From the IMG/VR virus record IMGVR_UViG_3300005289_000075, positions 1 through 31,198 of that record: a stretch of 31,198 nucleotides of DNA; one strand, given 5' to 3'. How positions within the stretch are numbered: the first letter of the stretch is position 1; every line of letters starts with the position of its first letter. Under the pieces are notes generated by a model, which was given only the letters and a program-made list of their open reading frames with translations, had not been told where the DNA came from and did no database searches. Shown in pieces: positions 1,587-31,074 of the stretch. A program made the translations under genes and the position numbers. The DNA comes from a virus.

Positions 1587-2234
1587 TTAGAGCTTCATCA
1601 TCGCACGAACAACGACGCCGACAATGCGACAACCTTCCGCACACATCTCGACTGGATACGCAGGATTCAGCGGCTTCAAGAATCGCCTTCCGCCATCCTC
1701 AACTAACTTCTTGAACGTTGCTTCATTGCTGTCAGCGAGCTTTGCAACGACTAGCTTTCCTGAGATCGCTTCCACCTCAGTATCAACTAGGATCATCATT
1801 CCTTCGGTGATGCTGGTGCCTACCGGCGAGGTCATTGAGTCACCTTTGACCTCAAGCCAAAATGCAACGCCTTTCGAGTCGTAGTCGGACACTTCGTAGC
1901 GGTCCGAGAACCCCGGGGGAAATGGCTCAACAGCTTCGGCCCATGAGCCGGCTGCCACCCAGCTTATTACGGGGTAACGAAACGACATCTTGGGTTGCGG
2001 TATGGCCTCGACATTGGTCTCCTCGACTTCGGGACCCTCGCCGATCGCCAGCCACTCCGCTCGGAACCCAGTCGCTTTGGCGAGGGCGAAGAGGTTCTCA
2101 GGCCTGATGCTTTTGCTTTCGCCTGTAATCCACTGGGTTACGGCTGAGTTTGCGACGCCGCAAGCGGCTGCAACTTCGCCTTTTCTCATGCCGCTGACCG
2201 CAATGGCTTTGGCTATTCGTTCGTGTCGTTCCAT
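1587..2234 (-). CDS. CI-type repressor, helix-turn-helix plus S24 autoprotease
   Basis: A protein of 215 residues. Residues 5-65 are a Cro/CI-type helix-turn-helix (MRKGEVAAACGVANSAVTQW). Residues about 85-210 are a LexA/CI-like peptidase S24 domain. The cleavage site is Ala95-Gly96 (SWVAAGSW), the nucleophile Ser133 (KGDSM) and the general base Lys175 (ATFKKL), all intact. It should bind the palindromic operators at 1066-1126 and 2243-2315 as dimers, hold lysogeny, and undergo RecA-stimulated self-cleavage after DNA damage. The ATG at 2234 has no visible Shine-Dalgarno; lambda cI made from PRM is leaderless, and the same may hold here. It diverges from the Cro-like gene at 2344. Confidence 0.92.
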   Translation of the reverse strand: MERHERIAKAIAVSGMRKGEVAAACGVANSAVTQWITGESKSIRPENLFALAKATGFRAEWLAIGEGPEVEETNVEAIPQPKMSFRYPVISWVAAGSWAEAVEPFPPGFSDRYEVSDYDSKGVAFWLEVKGDSMTSPVGTSITEGMMILVDTEVEAISGKLVVAKLADSNEATFKKLVEDGGRRFLKPLNPAYPVEMCAEGCRIVGVVVRAMMKL

Positions 2235-2242
2235 GCGCTGAG

Positions 2243-2273
2243 TTTAAGTTAACTGAATTTAAGTATGCAGTTC
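2243..2273. promoter_or_regulatory. Repressor operators next to the repressor start
   Basis: TTTAAGTTAACTGAAT at 2243-2258 is a clear copy of the operator; TTTAAGTATGCAGTTC at 2258-2273 is a degenerate, abutting copy. They lie 9 to 39 bases upstream of the repressor ATG, so they are placed to control the repressor promoter. I could not fix a good PRM. Confidence 0.6.
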
Positions 2274-2287
2274 GCAGAATGGCGTCA

Positions 2288-2316
2288 TTGACTATGTTCT
2301 TTCAGCATGCTGAAAT
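2288..2316 (+). promoter_or_regulatory. Rightward early promoter (PR)
   Basis: TTGACT (2288-2293) and TGAAAT (2311-2316) are spaced by 17 bases. The best operator of the window occupies the spacer and the edge of the -10, as expected for a repressor-controlled PR. The start would be near 2323, ahead of the Cro-like gene. Confidence 0.65.
2300..2315. promoter_or_regulatory. Consensus operator, perfect 16-bp palindrome
   Basis: TTTCAGCATGCTGAAA is fully palindromic. Shared half-site CTGAAA also occurs in the sites at 1066-1126 and 2243-2258, which supports a common DNA-binding protein. Confidence 0.8.
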
Positions 2317-2343
2317 TCACGAACGCACCATCGAGGAAGCGCA

Positions 2344-2568
2344 ATGAAAACGCGTGACGCTGCTAACCATTTCGGCAGCAAGAAAAAGCTCGCCGACGCG
2401 CTAGGTATTCAGCCAAGCGCAGTGACCATGTGGGGGGAGCTCGTTCCGATCTCTCGCCAGTACCAGCTCCAAGTTCTCTCAGACGGAAAGCTTATGGCTG
2501 ATGCAAAGCCGTCTGCCGAGGAATGCCAGAAGTGTGACAGGACTGGCATTGCGCCAGTAGATGACTGA
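2344..2568 (+). CDS. Cro-like transcriptional regulator
   Basis: A protein of 74 residues beginning at ATG 2344 behind GAGGAAG. Residues about 8-35 form a Cro-type helix-turn-helix (KKKLADALGIQPSAVTMWG) in which a helix selects DNA by the sequence after GIQ. The family has about 60-75 residues, so the length fits. The C-terminal third holds CxxC (ECQKCDRTG), which Cro proteins usually lack. It is divergent from the S24 repressor across the operator cluster, the classic cI-cro arrangement, and should favour lytic growth by competing for the same operators. Confidence 0.82.
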   Translation: MKTRDAANHFGSKKKLADALGIQPSAVTMWGELVPISRQYQLQVLSDGKLMADAKPSAEECQKCDRTGIAPVDD

Positions 2569-2606
2569 AACACCTGCGGATCCATCCAGTACTGGAAAGG
2601 CAGGCG

Positions 2607-2637
2607 AAAAAAAACCGCCTGGCAGGGCGGCTTCTCT
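2607..2637. terminator. Hairpin after cro (tR1-like)
   Basis: CCGCC (2615-2619) and GGCGG (2626-2630) form a stem preceded by eight A and followed by CTTCTCT. It has a strong T-tract only on the minus strand; on the plus strand it is weak. Its place just after cro matches tR1 of lambda, where a leaky stop lowers downstream expression. Confidence 0.45.
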
Positions 2638-2659
2638 ACAACAAACATCGAGGTCGATT

Positions 2660-3406
2660 ATGCACTCCGCAATCGATGCCAGCAATACCAAGCTTGTTGC
2701 GTTAGCTGTTGGCGATTCGCCAAAACTGGCGCATCAGTTCATGTCTACCCGCGAGATCGCGCAACTCACTGGCAAGAGCCATGACAACGTGCTTCGTGAT
2801 GCACGACGCCTGGTCGCAGAGGGTGTCCTCAAATCTGAGGAGACCCCATACACCCATCCACAAAACGGCCAATCCTATCCAGAGTTCCTGCTGAGTCAGC
2901 GCGATACCTTGGTGCTGGTATCCGGTTACAACTCCCAACTGCGTGCCAGGATTATCGACCGGTGGCAGGATCTTGAGGCGAGGGTAGTTGCCCAGGTCCG
3001 AATCCCCCAAACCTTCGCTGAGGCGCTGCGACTGGCTGCCGATCAAGCAGAGCAGAACCTTCAGCTGCAGCAGGTCATCCAGAAACAAGCCCCGAAAGTC
3101 GCGGCCATCAAGCGTTTGGCTTCTGCTTGCGGGGCCATCTGCATCACTGATGCGGCCAAGCAGCTGCAGGTTGCCCCGTCGAAGTTGTTCGACTGGCTGG
3201 AGCAGAATCGCTGGATCTTCCGCCGCAAGGGCTCGAAGCGATGGATCGCTTATCAGCCTCGCATCACCTCGGGGCTTATGAAGCACAAGGTGACAGCCCT
3301 GAAACCTGACCCTGAAACAGGTATCGAGCGCGCCGCGTTTGATCCTCTGGTGACCCCGAAAGGGCTTGCGCGTCTTGCTGAATTAAAGGCTGGGGGTTCG
3401 CTGTGA
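2660..3406 (+). CDS. Rha family regulator with KilAC C-terminal domain
   Basis: I chose ATG 2660 (GAGGTCG 6 bases upstream) over an in-frame ATG at 2561, which overlaps cro and runs through a hairpin; the product is 248 residues. Residues about 20-100 match the Rha domain: MSTREIAQLTGKSHDNVLRD, then SYPEFLLSQRDTLVLVSGYN, then RARIIDRWQDLE. Residues about 115-150 are a helical linker (QAEQNLQLQQVIQKQ). Residues about 150-245 match the phage antirepressor KilAC DNA-binding domain (AAKQLQVAPSKLFDWLEQN, then RRKGSKRW). Rha proteins interfere with phage growth in hosts lacking IHF, and KilAC/ANT proteins act as antirepressors, so a regulatory role early in infection is likely. It is the first gene after cro. 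The stop overlaps the next start (GTGA). Confidence 0.85.
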   Translation: MHSAIDASNTKLVALAVGDSPKLAHQFMSTREIAQLTGKSHDNVLRDARRLVAEGVLKSEETPYTHPQNGQSYPEFLLSQRDTLVLVSGYNSQLRARIIDRWQDLEARVVAQVRIPQTFAEALRLAADQAEQNLQLQQVIQKQAPKVAAIKRLASACGAICITDAAKQLQVAPSKLFDWLEQNRWIFRRKGSKRWIAYQPRITSGLMKHKVTALKPDPETGIERAAFDPLVTPKGLARLAELKAGGSL

Positions 3407-5147: not shown

Positions 5148-5572
5148 ATGCTCCCGCCCCTAGCCCGTTCAAGGCCAAACCGGCTCGCGCCAAGCCCGTC
5201 GACAGGGAAGGGCAGGAGCAGGCCGCGCTAATGAAAGAGCTCCAGTTGCGCTACCCGCAGGCGTACAAGCTGATCTACCACGTGCCGAACGGCGGGCACC
5301 GAATCAAGGCCGTGGCTGCCAAGCTCAAGGGGCAGGGCGTCAAAGCTGGCGTGCCCGACCTGGTGCTTCCGATGGCGCGTGGTGGGTACTTCGGGCTGTA
5401 CATCGAGTTCAAGGCCAAGCCGCCCTTCGATGCCCCGGTGTCGCCCAGTCAGGATGCCTTCCTGCAGCTGCTGACGAACGAGAACTACCTGGCCATCGTG
5501 TGCCGCGGGAACATCGACGCCGTCGAGGCCATCCGCGCCTATCTGCTGCTGCCCGCCACGGTGGCTGCATGA
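5144..5572 (+). CDS. VRR-NUC domain nuclease
   Basis: A protein of 142 residues starting at ATG 5144. The VRR-NUC (PD-(D/E)xK superfamily) motifs are in order: Glu25 in GQEQAALM, HVPNGGHR at 46-53, GVPDLVLP with Asp72, YIEFKAK with Glu88 and Lys90, and Gln103 in SPSQ. This stand-alone phage form is about 90-150 residues, so length fits. Some VRR-NUC enzymes cut Holliday junctions or flaps, and a recombination or branch-resolving role in the nin-like region is plausible. The stop overlaps the integrase start (ATGA). Confidence 0.85.
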   Translation: MNAPAPSPFKAKPARAKPVDREGQEQAALMKELQLRYPQAYKLIYHVPNGGHRIKAVAAKLKGQGVKAGVPDLVLPMARGGYFGLYIEFKAKPPFDAPVSPSQDAFLQLLTNENYLAIVCRGNIDAVEAIRAYLLLPATVAA

Positions 5573-6867
5573 GCGCGACCCGTGAAGTGAAGCTGAGCGA
5601 GGCCGAGGTGCGCCGGCAGGCCGCAGACAAGTCGGTGCGCGACTTGCGCGACCCGAGACACCCGGGCCTGTACCTTCGCTTCTGGAGCAACCGAGAGCGT
5701 GGCACCTGGCACCTGGTGCGAGGCAAGAAGTGGGTACCGATCGCCCGTTGGCCCGACCTGACCGTGGCGGCCGTGCTGGCCGAGCTGCCCGCGCTGCGTC
5801 AGCGCCTGATGCGCGACCCGGCCACCGCGCCGATTGCCTCGGGCATGGCCACCGTAGGGCAACTGCTCGACTGGTACGGTAACCGCATGGCCCGCGACCG
5901 ATCGTTGTCGGCGAAGCGCAAGGCCGGCGCACGGTCCGCCATCGCCCAGCACCTGAAGCCGCGGCTCGATGACCTAGCCTTGGCCGAGGTGACTGCCGAC
6001 GCGTTGGACAGGCAGCTGATGTGGCCGTGCCAGGCCGAAGTGTCTCTATCCTACCTGCGGCAGATGTTCGCGCTGCTGCTGACCGCTTTCCGCCAGGCCC
6101 AGCAGCTTGGCCTGATCGACCGCAACCCGATGGCAGGGATGCGCTTCAACGACTTCACCAAGGCCAAGATCCTGCCCAAGGCAGCCCGCCTGCGCGACGT
6201 GCAACTCCCCGAGCTGATGCAGCAGTTGGCCCAGGCCTTCGAAACGGCCCCGGGCGACGCCATGCTGGCCCTGATGATGCTGGCCCACGGCACCCGGATC
6301 GGTGAGACCCGAATGGCGCGCTGGAGTGAGATCTCGCTGGCAGCGGCCGAGTGGTTCATCCCGGCAGCGAACACCAAGACCCGCACCGAGCACCGCCTGC
6401 CATTGACTGCCCAGGTCGAGGCGCTGCTGGTGAGGTACCGGGCGATTCAGCAGGGTCAGGGCTACGAGGGTGTGTACCTGTTCCCGAACCGTCGCGGCCT
6501 GTCGCTGAGCGAGACCCAGGCCAGTGCCGTGTTCACCCGCCTGGGGCAGGGCGAGTGGACCAGCCACGACCTACGCAAGGTGTCTCGCAGCACCTGGACC
6601 GACCTCGGTATCGACGGGCACATCGGCGAGATGCTGCTAAATCACACGCTGGGCAAGATCGCCAGCACCTACATCCACACCCAAGCCATGCAGCAGCGTC
6701 GGGTTGCGCTGGAGAAGTGGCACGCGTGGCTTGATGAGGCTGGCTTCGTGGCCATTCACCGCCTTACCAAGACCTTATTTGAAAATTCGCAGAATTCGCC
6801 GCAGGCCACAGCAGGCGTGGCGTCGAGCGACCTTACCGCATTTGTAATTAGCGAGGATTCGAAATGA
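5569..6867 (+). CDS. Tyrosine recombinase (integrase) in an internal position
   Basis: ATG 5569 overlaps the previous stop; the product is 432 residues. Residues about 5-75 look like the N-terminal arm-binding (DUF4102-like) domain (DLRDPRHPGLYLRFW). Residues 95-195 are the core-binding domain. Residues 205-390 are the catalytic domain with Arg243 (AHGTRIGE), Lys270 (ANTKTR), His333/Arg336 (TSHDLRK), His359 (LLNHTLGK) and nucleophile Tyr368 (STYIH). All key residues are present. It should join phage and host DNA at att sites. It is odd that it lies inside the rightward early operon with 4-base overlaps on both sides, leaving no room for an adjacent attP. The C-terminal 40 residues are low-complexity and AT-richer. 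Confidence 0.88.
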   Translation: MSATREVKLSEAEVRRQAADKSVRDLRDPRHPGLYLRFWSNRERGTWHLVRGKKWVPIARWPDLTVAAVLAELPALRQRLMRDPATAPIASGMATVGQLLDWYGNRMARDRSLSAKRKAGARSAIAQHLKPRLDDLALAEVTADALDRQLMWPCQAEVSLSYLRQMFALLLTAFRQAQQLGLIDRNPMAGMRFNDFTKAKILPKAARLRDVQLPELMQQLAQAFETAPGDAMLALMMLAHGTRIGETRMARWSEISLAAAEWFIPAANTKTRTEHRLPLTAQVEALLVRYRAIQQGQGYEGVYLFPNRRGLSLSETQASAVFTRLGQGEWTSHDLRKVSRSTWTDLGIDGHIGEMLLNHTLGKIASTYIHTQAMQQRRVALEKWHAWLDEAGFVAIHRLTKTLFENSQNSPQATAGVASSDLTAFVISEDSK

Positions 6868-7438: not shown

Positions 7439-8125
7439 ATGGTTTACAGCAGCGTTTCGGGTGCAGTAGTTGCCGCTCTGGCGGCGGGCGAGAAGGGATC
7501 GGCGAAGGCCCAGGCCTGGCAGAAGCTGTACAAGTCGGCAGAGGAAGAGGGCGGCTGCTTGGCCTCATTGGGAGGCCGATCGGGCGGCATTGACCGCACC
7601 CAGGTGGATTATTGGGTGTCGGCGCGCCTACACCACATGCTCAAGGGCAGGCACTGGGATGCACTGGTCGCCAAGTACAGCACCAACAAGGCGAAGAAGG
7701 TTCAGGCGATCACGCTGATCCGGCCACTTATCGCGAGCCCAGCACCGACACTGTTCATCTACAAGGCGGTGACCGCGTGGGCCATCCCAAAGCTCAAGGG
7801 GGCACGCCGGAAGGCGCCGCAATCTGTGTCGGTAGACATCTCCCTGGATGCGTCGGCATGGCGCCGCGAGGCCACAGTCAATGCTGCAGTTGCCGCCGGG
7901 CAGGCCGCGAAAAGACGCATTGAGGCGTTGGAAGAGGATGTGATCATCCTGCCGGACAGCTTCTACGACATGAACACCTGGGATCTCGATGCTACGCCGG
8001 AGTCGACCCGGCGGCGGTGGAGGTTGGACATCAACGAGAAGCTGGCCGGGATGATTGACGACGCGCTGGCAGAGGTGCGGGTGATATTGGAGGCTGAGGG
8101 GCTGCTGATGAAAGAGGCTGCATGA
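7439..8125 (+). CDS. Putative late antiterminator (Q position), 228 aa
   Basis: ATG 7439 follows GGGGGAAGG. The protein is basic in the middle, without membrane segments. A conserved-looking core lies at residues 57-120 (QVDYWVSARLHHMLKGRHW, then DALVAKYSTNK, then PAPTLFIYKAVTAWAIPKL). The C-terminal half is helical and acidic. The Q assignment is by context: it is the last gene of the early operon, directly followed by a promoter-like TTGACA and then an intrinsic terminator, as Q is by PR' and tR' in lambda. Q proteins are very diverse, and this could instead be another conserved phage protein. I see no decisive sequence motif. Confidence 0.55.
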   Translation: MVYSSVSGAVVAALAAGEKGSAKAQAWQKLYKSAEEEGGCLASLGGRSGGIDRTQVDYWVSARLHHMLKGRHWDALVAKYSTNKAKKVQAITLIRPLIASPAPTLFIYKAVTAWAIPKLKGARRKAPQSVSVDISLDASAWRREATVNAAVAAGQAAKRRIEALEEDVIILPDSFYDMNTWDLDATPESTRRRWRLDINEKLAGMIDDALAEVRVILEAEGLLMKEAA

Positions 8126-8132
8126 TTGACTG

Positions 8133-8162
8133 TTGACATCAGTGAGCGACTGAGCGAAATTA
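8133..8162 (+). promoter_or_regulatory. Candidate late promoter (PR')
   Basis: A perfect TTGACA (8133-8138) lies 8 bases after the stop of the Q-position gene. An A/T-rich AAATTATC follows after 18-20 bases as a poor -10. About 40 bases further on is the terminator 8202-8235. Promoter, short leader and terminator resemble PR'-tR'. Confidence 0.45.
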
Positions 8163-8201
8163 TCCCCATCCTGTCATTCCTGCGCGTGTTGAGGAGTGAG
8201 G

Positions 8202-8235
8202 CGAAAAAGCCCGGCATATCCGCCGGGCTTTTTCG
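8202..8235. terminator. Bidirectional intrinsic terminator (tR'-like)
   Basis: GCCCGGC (8209-8215) and GCCGGGC (8222-8228) form a stem with a 6-base loop, with five A before and five T after. It ends rightward transcription after the Q-position gene and leftward transcription of the minus-strand gene 8236-8484. Late transcription must pass it. Confidence 0.9.
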
Positions 8236-8484
8236 TTATACGGCCTTTAAGTTCCACTCCTTATCAAGCCATGCGTTCACATCTTCACGCTTATGCGGTG
8301 CCCTGCCAGGAACGCCTTCAAGCTTGTGCGCTACCTTGCTCCGATTATCGTCGGACAAGGTGCAGTTTCTCGTCTTCAGGTAGTGGTCGATGAAGTACTC
8401 GACCTCCCAGGATTCGGTAAGAGAGACAAAAATCCGGTCGATCTTTCCCCGGTACTTCTTGTTGTCGTTACTGCTCCAAACCAT
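8236..8484 (-). CDS. Reverse-strand small protein in the late leader (moron), 82 aa
   Basis: I chose ATG 8484 because CTGGAG lies 8 bases upstream; a GTG at 8517 is in frame but has no such site. The protein is soluble and charged: KYRGKIDRIFVSLTESWEVE, then IDHYLKTRNC, then GRAPHKREDVNAWLDKEW. The helical EVEYF and VNAWL ends faintly recall DUF3606, but I do not assign it. It is alone on the minus strand, with its stop abutting the bidirectional terminator, and has somewhat lower GC than its neighbours. A possible extended -10 (TGCTAATAG, minus strand near 8524-8531) could drive it from the prophage. These traits fit a moron expressed in lysogeny. Confidence 0.7.
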   Translation of the reverse strand: MVWSSNDNKKYRGKIDRIFVSLTESWEVEYFIDHYLKTRNCTLSDDNRSKVAHKLEGVPGRAPHKREDVNAWLDKEWNLKAV

Positions 8485-8590
8485 TGCTAGTGCTCCAGTT
8501 AAGTGGCTGATTGCCACCTCACCCTATTAGCACGCCGTTTACTTCGGATCCATTGTGCTTTGGTCTGGAGTTGCCATCTATTTTCCTGAA

Positions 8591-8604
8591 CCCTCTACAG
8601 AGGG
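8591..8604 (+). promoter_or_regulatory. Hairpin covering the holin ribosome-binding site
   Basis: CCCTCT-AC-AGAGGG is a perfect inverted repeat whose right arm is the Shine-Dalgarno for the holin start at 8615 (10 bases away). In lambda, a stem-loop upstream of gene S (sdi) sets which of two starts is used. Confidence 0.5.
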
Positions 8605-8614
8605 ATTTCCCGAG

Positions 8615-8938
8615 ATGCCAAACATGCCCGAGAAGGATCCTGGCCTGTGGGCCGCTGTGCTCACTTGGGTTCTGGCCCATCAGCCTCAGCTGTATGCCGC
8701 TGGCTTGTCAGTCGCGATCGCCGTCCTTCGGGTGGTGTACGGCGGCGGCACTCGGCGGCAGATGTTCTTGGAGGGTGCCTTGTGCGGCCTCATCACCCTG
8801 GCCTTGGTGCCGCTGCTCGAATGGATGGGCCTGCCACAGGGTATGGCTACCTTCGCTGGCGGCATGGTCGGCTTCATGGGTGTGGAAAAGCTTCGCGGCT
8901 ATTCCGACCTGTTCTTGTCTCGTAAGGCGCAGGGGTGA
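8615..8938 (+). CDS. Lambda-family holin with two possible starts
   Basis: Two ATGs nine bases apart (8615 and 8624) give proteins of 107 and 104 residues; the shorter begins MPEKDPGLW, which matches the MPEKHD start of lambda S105. Three membrane segments are visible: about 14-35 (LWAAVLTWVLAHQPQLYAAG), 38-55 (AIAVLRVVYGGG region), and 66-90 (GALCGLITLALVPLLEW), followed by a basic C-terminus (LSRKAQG). Holins gather in the inner membrane and open it at a set time so that the endolysin gets out. An upstream in-frame ATG at 8555 precedes the Shine-Dalgarno and is unlikely. It is the first late gene on the plus strand, far from the other lysis genes at 30110-31074. Confidence 0.88.
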   Translation: MPNMPEKDPGLWAAVLTWVLAHQPQLYAAGLSVAIAVLRVVYGGGTRRQMFLEGALCGLITLALVPLLEWMGLPQGMATFAGGMVGFMGVEKLRGYSDLFLSRKAQG

Positions 8939-8941
8939 TCA

Positions 8942-9172
8942 ATGAATCGAAACCAGATTGCCACCGCCTACAGCCTGTTCTCCAAGCGTGACCAGGTGCA
9001 ACGGCGCCTGGATACGGTGCTGAGTGGATCCGGGGTTGCATTGATGTTGACCGGTGATTATCAGGAGCCGGCTGTGCTGGCTGCTGTTGTTGATCCACTT
9101 GCAGATCACTTCAGGAAAGAGCTCGAGCACATTGATGCTCAGCTCAAGTTGATGGGGTGGAGCGGCGAGTAA
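8942..9172 (+). CDS. Small hypothetical late protein (76 aa)
   Basis: ATG 8942 lies 3 bases after the holin stop, with AGGGGTGA as a Shine-Dalgarno. The protein is helical: residues 8-25 (TAYSLFSKRDQVQRRLDTVL) and 45-72 (LAAVVDPLADHFRKELEHID) look like two helices with a Gly-rich turn between, so a helical hairpin is likely. No membrane segment. Function unknown. It lies with other tiny genes (9232, 9462, 9699) between the holin and the packaging genes, where phages often carry counter-defence genes. Confidence 0.7.
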   Translation: MNRNQIATAYSLFSKRDQVQRRLDTVLSGSGVALMLTGDYQEPAVLAAVVDPLADHFRKELEHIDAQLKLMGWSGE

Positions 9173-9231
9173 CTCAGTCGCGCTCAAACCTTGATGCGCC
9201 GTTTCGTGGCGCGCCCACATGAGGACTCACC

Positions 9232-9462
9232 ATGGACAACCAGCACAAGAAGATCACCGGCTACCGTGACCTCTCCCAGAGCGAGATCGACGGAATGAAC
9301 TCGATCAAGGCCCTGGAAGCGGATGCCGGCGAGCTGTTCAAGCAGATCGGCCAGATTGACGGGGTTGATCAGCGCGCCTTGGCTCTGGCCAAAACCAACC
9401 TGCAACAGGGTTTCATGTGGTTCGTGCGTTCGATCGCTAAGCCCGCTGATCCTTTCAGCTGA
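9232..9462 (+). CDS. Acb2/Tad1-hairpin family protein, candidate anti-CBASS cyclic-nucleotide sponge
   Basis: A protein of 76 residues; AGGA lies upstream of ATG 9232. The whole chain fits the pattern I recall for the small phage Acb2 group: HKKITGYRDLSQSEIDGMN (5-23), IKALEADAGELF (25-36), then DQRALALAKTNLQQGFMWF (46-64) and VRSIAKP. Acb2 of Pseudomonas phage PaMx33 binds cyclic di- and trinucleotides and so stops CBASS effectors; the ligand residues I recall, Tyr11 and Lys26, fall at exactly those numbers here (GYR, IKA). If correct, it soaks up signals in the host cytoplasm during infection. It sits in the late operon among tiny genes; its stop overlaps the next start (TGATG). The assignment is by recalled pattern, not by search. 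Confidence 0.75.
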   Translation: MDNQHKKITGYRDLSQSEIDGMNSIKALEADAGELFKQIGQIDGVDQRALALAKTNLQQGFMWFVRSIAKPADPFS

Positions 9463-9686
9463 TGTCCAAGGCGCCTTACACGCCTTGCAAGCTGTACGTG
9501 GATGGCGCCGAGGGCATCGCAGTTGGCGACTTCATAACCACCGCAGCCGGATCTGCATACCTAGTGCAGGCGCTTCGAGTAAGCCGAACTAGGCCTGAGC
9601 GAAAGCACATGCACTGCCTGCGCTGGCCGATTCCCGAGGTGCCGGCGGATGCCCGGCGTTTCCAATTGACCTGGTACAAGAGATAG
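9462..9686 (+). CDS. Small hypothetical late protein (74 aa)
   Basis: ATG 9462 shares its A with the previous stop, so translation is probably coupled. The protein is a compact beta-rich chain: KLYVDGAEGIAVGDFITTAA, then SAYLVQALRVSR, then HCLRWP and RRFQLTWYKR. It has no membrane segment or signal and resembles small conserved proteins of Pseudomonas phages. It is co-translated with the sponge-like gene, so a joint accessory role is possible but unproven. Confidence 0.7.
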   Translation: MSKAPYTPCKLYVDGAEGIAVGDFITTAAGSAYLVQALRVSRTRPERKHMHCLRWPIPEVPADARRFQLTWYKR

Positions 9687-9698
9687 GGAACGTGAGCC

Positions 9699-9857
9699 AT
9701 GGCCCGCATGACTGTGACAATCGTCTGCCAACAGAGCTGGTGGCTCAATTACTACCTGGCCGGCGTCCTGGCTATGACCCGCATCACCGGACGCGAGCTG
9801 GACCTTGGCCGTGTACTGAGGTGGATAGAGCGCGGTATCAGGGTCGAGGTGCGCTGA
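9699..9857 (+). CDS. Very small hypothetical protein (52 aa)
   Basis: ATG 9699 is preceded by AGGGAACGTGA. The frame encodes MTVTIVCQQSWWLNYYLAGV around residues 4-23, then TGRELDLGRVLRWIERGIRV. The N-terminal half is hydrophobic and aromatic and could touch or span the membrane; the C-terminal half is a basic helix. Its stop overlaps the HNH gene start by one base (TGATG). Gene order and codon use support a real gene. Function unknown. Confidence 0.65.
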   Translation: MARMTVTIVCQQSWWLNYYLAGVLAMTRITGRELDLGRVLRWIERGIRVEVR

Positions 9858-10195
9858 TGGCCAGGCTCAGGACACTGGGCCCGCGCATCAAGGAAAGCGC
9901 AGGCTCGCGGGTCAAGGTGGTCACACCAGGCAGTTGGCGAAGCGGGATGACCAGCTCTCAACGTGGCTACGACTACCAATGGCAGAAAGCACGAGAGCAG
10001 TACCTGCGTGACAACCCGCTGTGCATCTACTGTGAACGGAACGGACGCACAACTGCCGCCAGGATTGTCGACCACATCGTTGCTCACCGTGGAGACATGA
10101 TTCTCTTCTGGGATCAGGCCAACTGGCAGAGCCTCTGCAAGCCTTGCCACGACTCCGTCAAGCAGGCCGAGGAGGCGGCGGGGCTTGGTGGCTGA
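9857..10195 (+). CDS. HNH endonuclease, packaging-associated
   Basis: A protein of 112 residues from ATG 9857 (an in-frame GTG at 9692 would overlap the 52-aa gene entirely). The HNH motif is complete: Cys56-x2-Cys59 (LCIYC), Asp72-His73 (VDHIV), Asn89 (ANW), Cys94-x2-Cys97-His98 (LCKPCHD). Residues 36-52 (RGYDYQWQKAREQYLRDNP) are typical of the HNH proteins encoded beside HK97-type terminases. Such proteins stimulate the terminase to make the cos cut. It lies directly before the cos-like stretch and the terminase genes. Confidence 0.88.
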   Translation: MARLRTLGPRIKESAGSRVKVVTPGSWRSGMTSSQRGYDYQWQKAREQYLRDNPLCIYCERNGRTTAARIVDHIVAHRGDMILFWDQANWQSLCKPCHDSVKQAEEAAGLGG

Positions 10196-10351
10196 CACGT
10201 CACCGGATTGCTGAAACCCCGCCCGGCGACATAGAAGCACGCCAATGACGTGCCGCGAAGGGGTGGGGGGTCAAAAGCTAGGGATTCTCATCTAGCTAGA
10301 CCGCCACCGACCCCACGTACATATTTTTTCCCGTTTCAGGAAAAGTTAACC
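10196..10351 (+). other. Non-coding cos-like region
   Basis: The stretch between HNH and small terminase holds no gene. It contains GTGGGGGGTC (10263-10272) and GACCCCAC (10308-10315 region) as facing arms, the phrase GGTCAAAAGCTAGGGATTCT, the palindrome CTAGCTAG at 10292-10299, and T6 near 10324. The G-rich run followed by TCAAAAG and then CCGCC is what I recall from the cos regions just upstream of terminase genes in HK97-like phages. The exact cut cannot be seen. Confidence 0.45.
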
Positions 10352-10828
10352 ATGGCTTTAACCGACAAGAAGCGGCGGTTTGTTGACGCTTTGCTGTCGG
10401 GTGCCACAAATCGCGAGGCGGCGATCGCTGCCGGATATTCGGAGAAGACCGCGTCGCAAGCGGGCTCCAAGCTTGCGAAGGACCCCGATGTCCTTGCTGA
10501 AGTCGGACGCCGGTTGAAGCAAAAGCAGGCTTCCAGCACCGAGGTTAAACCGTCTCGAAAAGTTAAAGCTGAACAGCCGCAGGTTCAGCAGGCTGATGAC
10601 TTGTCGCTAACCGAGACCGACGATCCGCGCGCCTTCCTGACTGAGCTAATGAACGCCGAATGCGCCGACATGCGTATGCGACTGGAAGCGGCAAAGACGC
10701 TGATGCCTTATGTGCACGGCAAGGTCGCCGACCAGGGCAAGAAAGAGCAGAAGGCCGAGGCTGCCAAACAGGTCGGTAAAGGCAAGTACTCCCAAGGCAA
10801 GCCACCCCTCTCTGTAGTGAAGAATTGA
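10352..10828 (+). CDS. Terminase small subunit
   Basis: ATG 10352 follows CAGGAAAAG; the product is 158 residues. Residues 1-60 match the terminase_2 N-terminal helix-turn-helix: LTDKKRRFVDALLSGATNRE, then AAIAAGYSEKTASQAGSKLA, then VLAEVGRRL. Residues 60-90 are a Gln/Lys-rich linker; 95-130 a helical oligomerisation segment (FLTELMNAECADMRMRLEAA, then KTLMPYVHGK); the end is Lys-rich. The small subunit binds the packaging site and feeds DNA to the large subunit encoded 3 bases downstream. Confidence 0.9.
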   Translation: MALTDKKRRFVDALLSGATNREAAIAAGYSEKTASQAGSKLAKDPDVLAEVGRRLKQKQASSTEVKPSRKVKAEQPQVQQADDLSLTETDDPRAFLTELMNAECADMRMRLEAAKTLMPYVHGKVADQGKKEQKAEAAKQVGKGKYSQGKPPLSVVKN

Positions 10829-30109: not shown

Positions 30110-30556
30110 ATGACCACACCACGCGGTGTCCGCAACAAGAACCCTGGCAACATCGATTACAACCCTCGCAACGCCTGGCAGGGCCAGCTCGGCCTGGAAG
30201 AGGGTGTATCCAAGCCGCGCTTCGCCCGCTTCGACCATCCCGAGAACGGCATCCGCGCCCTGGGCAAGCTGCTCATCAACTACCGCGGCAAGGACGGCAT
30301 GCCGGGGGTAGGTGGGATGGGCATCGACACCGTGCTCGAAACCATCAACCGCTGGGCGCCGAGCAACGAGAACGACACCCAGGCCTACGCCGCTGCAGTT
30401 GCAAAGCGCCTGGGCGTTCGGGCCACGGACCCGATCGACATCAAAGACCCGGCCACGCTGCGCGGGATGGTGCTCGGCATCATCATCCACGAGAACGGCG
30501 GCAACCCGTACCCGTCGATGATCATTGATGAGGGTATTCGGCGGGCTTTGTCATGA
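30110..30556 (+). CDS. Peptidoglycan hydrolase-like protein (P5-type), probable endolysin
   Basis: TGGAG precedes ATG 30110; 148 residues. GVRNKNPGNIDYNPRNAWQG at residues 4-23, then RFDHPENGIRALGKLLINYR, then TVLETINRWAPSNENDTQAY and IIIHENGGNPYPSMIIDEG fit the 'structural protein P5'-like lysozyme-superfamily enzymes of phages. Glu47 in HPENGIRAL region or the second Glu in HENGG are possible catalytic acids; which cannot be fixed here. No signal peptide is present, so it needs the holin (8615) to reach the wall. It is directly upstream of Rz/Rz1 and overlaps them (ATGA). It could also be virion-borne. Confidence 0.75.
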   Translation: MTTPRGVRNKNPGNIDYNPRNAWQGQLGLEEGVSKPRFARFDHPENGIRALGKLLINYRGKDGMPGVGGMGIDTVLETINRWAPSNENDTQAYAAAVAKRLGVRATDPIDIKDPATLRGMVLGIIIHENGGNPYPSMIIDEGIRRALS

Positions 30557-31074
30557 GTGTTTGGCCTGCTACGGCTGCCACTGTGCTTGTGCTTCTGGCG
30601 TCCCACTGGGGCGCGTACCAGCACGGCCTATCGGTAGAGCGGGCGAAGGGCGCTCAGGTATCAGCGCAACGGGACAGTGGCGACCGCTTGGCCGAGGTAA
30701 TCGGCGAACAATCCGCACGCCAAGAAGAACACCGAAGCGCAGACGCGCAGCAAGAGGCGAGGGTAAAAGCGCATGAAGAAAGAACGATTGCTGATGCTGG
30801 CGCTGCTGGCGCCGATGCTGCTGGCCAGCGGCTGCGCGACGAAGGTGCCAAGCTCGCTGCCACCGTCAGTTGCCCCGGCACGGATACCGCCGCTATCGCC
30901 CGAGGCCAGGCAGCCTTCCGCGCCGCCATGGTGCTTTCCGACCTGCTCGACCGGTCTGTCGTCACGAATCGAGAGCTGGCGCAGGCTTATGACCGAGCCA
31001 GGATCGCCGGTGAGCAGTGCTCCCGGGAGCACGACGCCCTGATCGCAAAGCGGGCGTCAGGAAGCGCCCGCTAA
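30553..31074 (+). CDS. Rz: Spanin, inner-membrane subunit (Rz-like, DUF2514 type)
   Basis: ATG 30553 overlaps the previous stop; 173 residues. One N-terminal membrane segment (WPATAATVLVLLASHWGAYQ) is followed by a long periplasmic coiled coil rich in Ala, Arg, Glu and Gln (QRDSGDRLAEVIGEQSARQE, then AQQEARVKAHEERTIADAG), and a terminal part with Cys (SCPGTDT, EQCSREHD). This is Rz architecture with DUF2514 composition. With Rz1, encoded inside it in another frame, it spans the periplasm and fuses the two membranes after wall breakdown. It ends the lysis cassette. Confidence 0.87.
   Translation: MSVWPATAATVLVLLASHWGAYQHGLSVERAKGAQVSAQRDSGDRLAEVIGEQSARQEEHRSADAQQEARVKAHEERTIADAGAAGADAAGQRLRDEGAKLAATVSCPGTDTAAIARGQAAFRAAMVLSDLLDRSVVTNRELAQAYDRARIAGEQCSREHDALIAKRASGSAR
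30773..31042 (+). CDS. Rz1: Spanin, outer-membrane lipoprotein subunit (Rz1), nested in Rz
   Basis: ATG 30773 lies in the +1 frame wholly within Rz; GAGGG is 9 bases upstream. The 89-residue product starts with MKKERLLMLALLAPMLLASG, a lipoprotein signal with lipobox LASG-Cys21. The mature part is Pro-rich (SSLPPSVAPARIPPLSP, then PSAPPW), as in Rz1 of lambda. It would be lipid-anchored to the outer membrane and bind the Rz C-terminus. Mature length of 69 residues is longer than lambda Rz1 (40). Charge and frame make chance unlikely. Confidence 0.85.
   Translation: MKKERLLMLALLAPMLLASGCATKVPSSLPPSVAPARIPPLSPEARQPSAPPWCFPTCSTGLSSRIESWRRLMTEPGSPVSSAPGSTTP

Follow-up and report, generated by a model that had tools for sequence, protein, structure and literature searches.

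A short member of the Acb2 family, predicted to act as a cyclic-oligonucleotide sponge, encoded among the lysis and packaging genes of a Pseudomonas-type temperate phage

Introduction

What is the protein of 76 amino acids encoded at 9232–9462 of a viral genome record, among short co-directed genes with a holin on one side and HNH endonuclease and terminase genes on the other, and what might it do? The window, by which we mean the whole stretch of DNA analysed (a virus record of 31,198 bases), had been given a sequence-only reading, in which this frame was put forward as a candidate Acb2/Tad1-type sponge for cyclic nucleotides. It is now well supported that the product belongs, in a short form, to the known Acb2 family, whose proteins mop up the cyclic-nucleotide signals of bacterial defence; it is not a new system. 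Very probably the gene encodes an Acb2-family sponge, a claim in which the family comes from sequence profiles, the monomer fold from a predicted model and the sponge action from characterised relatives.

The Gene and Its Place in the Phage

The gene, called acb2 below, runs on the plus strand from ATG to TGA (9232..9462). A likely ribosome-binding site, GAGGA, can be read from the sequence at 9221..9225 (+), six bases 5′ of the ATG, and the stop codon overlaps the ATG of the next gene (TGATG, 9460–9464). The sequence-only reading was exact in its coordinates and strand, in the stretches of the 76-residue frame that it quoted and in the numbering of Tyr11 and Lys26.

Upstream of acb2 lie genes for an integrase (5500–6867), a protein of 228 amino acids (7439–8125), a holin of the Phage_holin_3_1 family (8618..8938, +; PF05106, E = 4.2e-33) and a 76-amino-acid protein of unknown function matching phrog_5415 (8942..9172, +). 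The DNA around the 228-amino-acid gene is matched by phage PseuP_222, whose features there are an anti-termination regulator and a hypothetical protein. On the 3′ side the order is two small proteins of unknown function, the first of 74 amino acids (phrog_15907; 9462..9686, +) and overlapping the acb2 stop, then an HNH endonuclease (9857..10195, +; phrog_589, E = 2.8e-39), the small and large terminase subunits, recognised by terminase families, a portal, a protease and the major head protein. With integrase and holin upstream and terminase, portal and head genes downstream, acb2 thus lies among the lysis and packaging genes of an apparently temperate tailed phage of Pseudomonas type; the late-operon location proposed earlier was right, given the holin, HNH and terminase family matches.

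Family Membership

The Pfam profile search that had been suggested as a check gave a match far over the cut-off: PF24729 (Acb2_Tad1_hairpin) scores 70.9 bits, the cut-off being 27 (E = 9.9e-20), aligning residues 10–70 with positions 1–58 of the 58-position profile. When the PDB was searched with the single sequence, three distinct matches were obtained, the p26 Acb2 entries 8h2j (E = 2.4e-13) and 8ixz (1.2e-12) and T4 Vs.4, 7uq2 (0.0057). With a profile of 14 rows (alignment A3) the same entries reached 1.7e-31, 2.7e-30 and 7.7e-9, respectively, the next PDB sequence standing at 0.39. We take chain p26 (8h2j, 8h2x, 8ixz) to be the Acb2 of Pseudomonas phage PaMx33. PHROG 717 is also matched (E = 1.1e-22), and it is from this family that homologues of T4 Vs.4 were drawn in PMC10097602. 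PADLOC and NCBIfam returned no family for the 76-amino-acid protein at E up to 10. The earlier family reading is therefore supported by the PF24729, PHROG 717 and PDB 8h2j/7uq2 matches, and its word "divergent" is fair with respect to the solved proteins, as identity in structural alignments is 34–42% to Acb2 and 23–26% to Vs.4.

The setting might also suit an accessory protein of lysis or packaging with no more than a likeness to Acb2, the more so as the gene lies in such a stretch in phages U2 and 5400 too and an antisense ORF there is annotated in one record as an Rz-like spanin. This reading is disfavoured, and indeed extremely unlikely, because the proteins matched by sequence profile and by structure are sponges with characterised biochemistry, because the gene also occurs in very different phages (for example of Erwinia, Serratia and Salmonella, ~340–360 kb) and because the window has an Rz-like spanin family match of its own at 30553–31074.

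Predicted Structure

An AlphaFold model of the monomer, made with alignment A3, contains two helices of at least four residues (16–40 and 47–68) and no strand of at least three (mean pLDDT 85.7, pTM 0.66), and is thus a long antiparallel helical hairpin of the kind that marks Acb2. The two ends are modelled with less certainty, at a mean pLDDT of 57 for residues 1–10 and 66 for the last block; the short N-terminal helix with which Acb2 is described in PMC12043709 is absent from the model, in which residues 1–10 have this low pLDDT.

In a Foldseek search of the PDB, ranks 1–8 are all Acb2 or Vs.4 chains (probability 0.98–1.00), although the E values are modest, the best being 1.9e-3 and none reaching 0.001; the ninth is another protein with an E value of 1.5. 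The top three rows of VIA-align are 8h2x, 8h2j and 7uq2 (Z 7.0–7.3, rmsd 2.5–3.2 over 67–72 residues), with an unrelated chain at Z 6.6, and a Z of about 7 is common for helical proteins. Several of the BFVD matches bear the name Acb2/Tad1 hairpin, none with an E value under 0.001. The fold comparison proposed earlier thus came out in favour of Acb2 and Vs.4 as the best matches of the predicted monomer. Since Foldseek E values are modest and such Z scores are usual for helical proteins, the fold alone is insufficient, and it serves to back the sequence evidence.

The model bears on a second reading, that of a Tad1-like anti-Thoeris sponge binding gcADPR, which is suggested by the helical hairpin that the Pfam family name gives to Acb2 and Tad1 in common. 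Tad1 is described as an N-terminal antiparallel beta sheet domain followed by C-terminal helices (PMC12043709). A protein of 76 amino acids, modelled as two helices, has no room for that domain, and a Thoeris role is less likely for this reason. The Tad1-type reading was rejected on the absence of the beta domain and is very unlikely to be correct.

Ligand and Interface Residues

How much of the Acb2 ligand site is retained by the short form? In the printed alignments, residue n of T4 Vs.4 corresponds to window residue n + 3 in the first part and n − 13 in the second. The ligand contacts of T4 Vs.4 are Y8, H11, K23, R79 and F82, Y8 and K23 contacting cGAMP, H11 forming a hydrogen bond and F82 stacking, and its hexamer residues are L29, A66, A73 and A77, as given in PMC10097602. 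Three of the five ligand residues are kept in the window protein (Y8 as Y11, K23 as K26 and R79 as R66) and two are changed (H11 to L14 and F82 to A69). The placing of Tyr11 and Lys26 at ligand positions, claimed in the sequence-only reading, is borne out, for they equal Y8 and K23 of T4 (PMC10097602) and carry the same numbers in solved Acb2 p26.

At the matching places p26 has L14, K26, R85 and A88; having Leu and Ala at the T4 H11 and F82 places, it has both differences from T4 in common with the window protein, and it is a proven sponge. Further likenesses to p26 (8h2j, 8h2x, 8ixz) are the N-terminal block MDNQHKKI.GYRDLSQ.EID, Y11, the two-helix hairpin and, as window/p26 pairs, R48/R67, T55/T74, R66/R85 and A69/A88. 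Unlike p26, which has 93 amino acids, the window protein has 76 and lacks 19 residues of the hairpin tip, and it has W63-F64 where p26 has A82-I83. T4 Vs.4 (7uq2) shares with it PF24729/PHROG 717, the hairpin, counterparts of Y8, K23, R79, A66 and T68 and a small residue at A73, but differs in having H11 and F82 in place of Leu and Ala and in its longer hairpin. The hexamer residues L29, A66, A73 and A77 become A32, A53, G60 and F64, and S74 of T4 falls on Phe61. With Ala32, Phe64 and Phe61 at the places of L29, A77 and S74, the interface packing must differ from that of T4.

These differences might mean a specialised sponge of the same fold and family: the binding of cyclic dinucleotides would be lost or altered in the short form, which would sequester cyclic trinucleotides for the most part, or the other way round. 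The absent 19-residue tip of solved Acb2 and the Phe residues at the places of T4 A77 and S74 would fit this reading, as would R48, which corresponds to R67 of Acb2 and is invariant across all 14 rows of A3. R67 of Acb2 presumably serves the trinucleotide site. The dinucleotide residues are, on the other hand, kept: among 90 distinct stop-free frames, Y11 varies in 0/90, K26 in 1/90 and R66 in 1/90 according to the per-site table, and the invariant columns of A3 include Y11, R12, D13, R48, R66, A69 and P71, with K26 nearly so. A specialised sponge is possible but rather unlikely.

The short form is common: of the 229 matching phage records, the best 60 include 56 whose record coordinates cover the length of the query to within one codon. 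It is a natural minimal construct; if di- and trinucleotides are both bound, the hairpin tip would be dispensable.

Proposed Mode of Action

In all likelihood the protein works like Acb2, and by analogy with relatives an outline of its action would be as follows: the protein would be made from the lysis/packaging transcript, in lytic growth or upon prophage induction, if the timing is that of its relatives. Its two-helix hairpins would assemble into a homo-oligomer, which is a hexamer in the solved relatives. Cyclic dinucleotides would be held between protomers, where Tyr11 would provide the stacking surface and Lys26 and Arg66 would lie at the phosphates. CBASS signals would then be kept off their effectors without being degraded, giving an anti-CBASS effect by sequestration.

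Does acb2 travel with CBASS? Across 199 genomes of one Pseudomonas genus, no acb2–CBASS association was found, SMODS being above cut-off in two of the 19 acb2 genomes and in 18 of 199 overall. These two are G061 and G063, and in G061 acb2 and the SMODS cyclase lie on one contig, ~46 kb apart.

Spread and Selective Constraint

Relatives of acb2 were matched in 229 phage records, which include the very different Erwinia, Serratia and Salmonella phages mentioned above. A chance open reading frame is ruled out by these matches together with the PF24729 E value of 9.9e-20 and the median dN/dS given below. In species genomes, 44 loci were found, 32 of them named Pseudomonas, by a scan that used the query's own peptides and so was tuned to close relatives; one of the 44, L045, matches only weakly (35%), within a frame of 307 amino acids, and is probably spurious. 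IMG/VR gave 327 confirmed acb2 stretches, of which 80 were kept. The family is common: in one Pseudomonas genus (that of genome G001, Pseudomonas sp. GM79, which holds locus L003), acb2 scores above cut-off in 19 of 199 genomes and has a match at E 0.001 in 21.

Selection was assessed, with the window copy as reference, on 109 nearly complete frames sharing 80% or more identity with the query (93 distinct at the DNA level). The median dN/dS is 0.037 (median dS 0.89, median dN 0.041), taken from the 105 comparisons, out of 108, in which dS was usable and exceeded 0.05; the ratio is a rough figure because dS is high. The gene is under purifying selection. Median identity of acb2 is 94.7% among loci fetched with acb2 as the query, that is, a set chosen for similarity, and the contrast with neighbours is biased by that choice: relative to the window copies it is 36.8% for the holin (38 loci) and 35.1% for the 228-amino-acid protein (43 loci). 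Other neighbours, where found, are closer, namely the portal (89.7%, 16 loci), the protease (85.6%, 13), the 74-amino-acid gene (87.8%, 10) and the phrog_5415 gene (94.7%, 4). The high dS speaks against a recent sweep of acb2 and in favour of constraint.

In contig 25 of Pseudomonas sp. RIT623, two acb2 copies (L010 and L026) lie ~7.25 kb apart with a leader hairpin before each, and the second copy has K26E, a change at a ligand residue. In Pseudomonas phage vB_Pae_U2 (L323, 2980–3675) the acb2 frame is unannotated, and the label "Rz-like spanin", given to an overlapping ORF on the opposite strand, appears to be a misannotation. Other relatives in phage records are labelled "NAD/FAD-utilizing enzyme". 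The Acb2 assignment offers a function for genes that are labelled hypothetical or mislabelled in these two ways.

A Leader Hairpin Found at Many Gene Junctions

Just 5′ of the acb2 ribosome-binding site lies a leader hairpin (9177..9214, +), matched by model R1 with 36.5 bits, a circular score since R1 was built from relatives plus the window copy itself. The outer stem of the window copy is imperfect; a local stem (9196–9200/9208–9212, GCGCC/GGCGC) is intact. The hairpin stands at the same place in relatives, with exact complementary arms ending 18–23 bases before the acb2 ATG at 68 of 125 loci, and is visible by eye in 82 of 92 distinct Pseudomonas-type leaders; it falls into three groups by sequence, between which changes in the arms compensate one another. 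In phages 5400 and U2 only 13 bases separate endolysin from acb2, and hence there is no leader hairpin at this place. Alignment A1 consists of these 82 leaders, the ten hairpin-less ones (L014, L020, L049, L051, L065, L074, L084, L095, L109 and L123) being omitted, and alignment A2 of 73 of 74 distinct trimmed pieces, L023 being omitted for its missing 3′ arm.

Is the element an RNA stem? Covariation speaks on both sides. In favour of a stem, 85.7% of cells are paired as compared with 77.3% in shuffles and the score is 0.223 as compared with 0.103, none of 500 shuffles being as high for either. Against it, changes on both sides occur in only 3 of 12 pairs, a count that all 500 shuffles reach and that lies below their mean of 4.5, sliding by one column gives a score of 0.228, and the changes track the sequence groups. 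Such mixed covariation makes a protein-binding DNA palindrome and an RNA stem equally possible.

In eight whole genomes, where 150 of 2006–3006 candidates were scored per genome, at least one to six R1 matches each were found at E 0.01, including matches on both strands to one palindrome. The element can be described as an inverted repeat of ~36 bases with arms CGCGCCAC.../...GTGGCGCG or CGCGACAC.../...GTGTCGCG, at gene junctions of Pseudomonas-type prophages; it is seen at window 9177–9214, in the leaders of L002–L125 and in L126–L204, and is often oriented, directly after a stop codon and before a ribosome-binding site. An acb2-independent pattern scan yielded at least 120 stretches, of which 80 loci were analysed, with 85 oriented matches among the matches listed. 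Among these, 29 of 85 have an upstream ORF stop within 15 bases together with a downstream RBS-like motif and an ORF within 50; the same arrangement was seen at 54 of 4000 places taken at random and, with the orientation reversed, in 2 of 85. An Rfam search of 8000–10500 gave eight matches at E up to 5, none over the gathering score and none at 9177–9214, and no title on such a Pseudomonas element appeared among the top literature matches on start-associated sequences or on the arm words. The idea that the hairpin is specific to acb2 is refuted, with 4 of the 85 oriented matches, among the matches listed, directly preceding acb2; the scan shows that it is a general gene-junction element of Pseudomonas-type prophages.

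Natural Nonsense Alleles

Three of the 109 frames, though otherwise conserved, carry a nonsense codon, at codon 43 (TAA, L119), codon 41 (TAG, L121) and codon 37 (TAG, L027). Another relative, L030, has TAG at codon 57 and stands outside the 109-frame set owing to a small in-frame deletion, and L031 has lost the N-terminus of acb2. Two of the 19 acb2 genomes in the genus of 199 show one TAG, G023 and G134, the latter fitting the L030 locus in place and span. As the scans kept best matches, these counts give no population rate.

A natural stop at Acb2 codon 37 is reported for PaMx41, in which a CBASS-resistant mutant replaces the stop (X37Q; PMC10419184), and T4 is reported to escape Panoptes through loss of Acb2 (PMC12657218 and PMC12657230). 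There may be a tie between the prophage nonsense alleles and Panoptes. Tentatively, and at rather long odds, compact Acb2 in Pseudomonas prophages could be kept as a gene that selection turns on and off, intact where CBASS is met and struck by repeated nonsense alleles (codons 37–43, plus 57) where Panoptes-like guards punish sponges, with expression behind a hairpin reused at many gene junctions. The alleles allow it to be tested directly whether sponges are selected against in nature by Panoptes-type guards, and together with the repeated gene-junction hairpin they may be the less known side observations on this family.

A trace of such alleles may already stand in the databases. Residues 1–42 of the window protein match phrog_29522 (E = 5e-29), a family of unknown function, over its whole length of 42 amino acids, which is the length of a nonsense allele like that of L119 with its stop at codon 43; judged by this length and match, phrog_29522 is probably a family of truncated acb2 frames.
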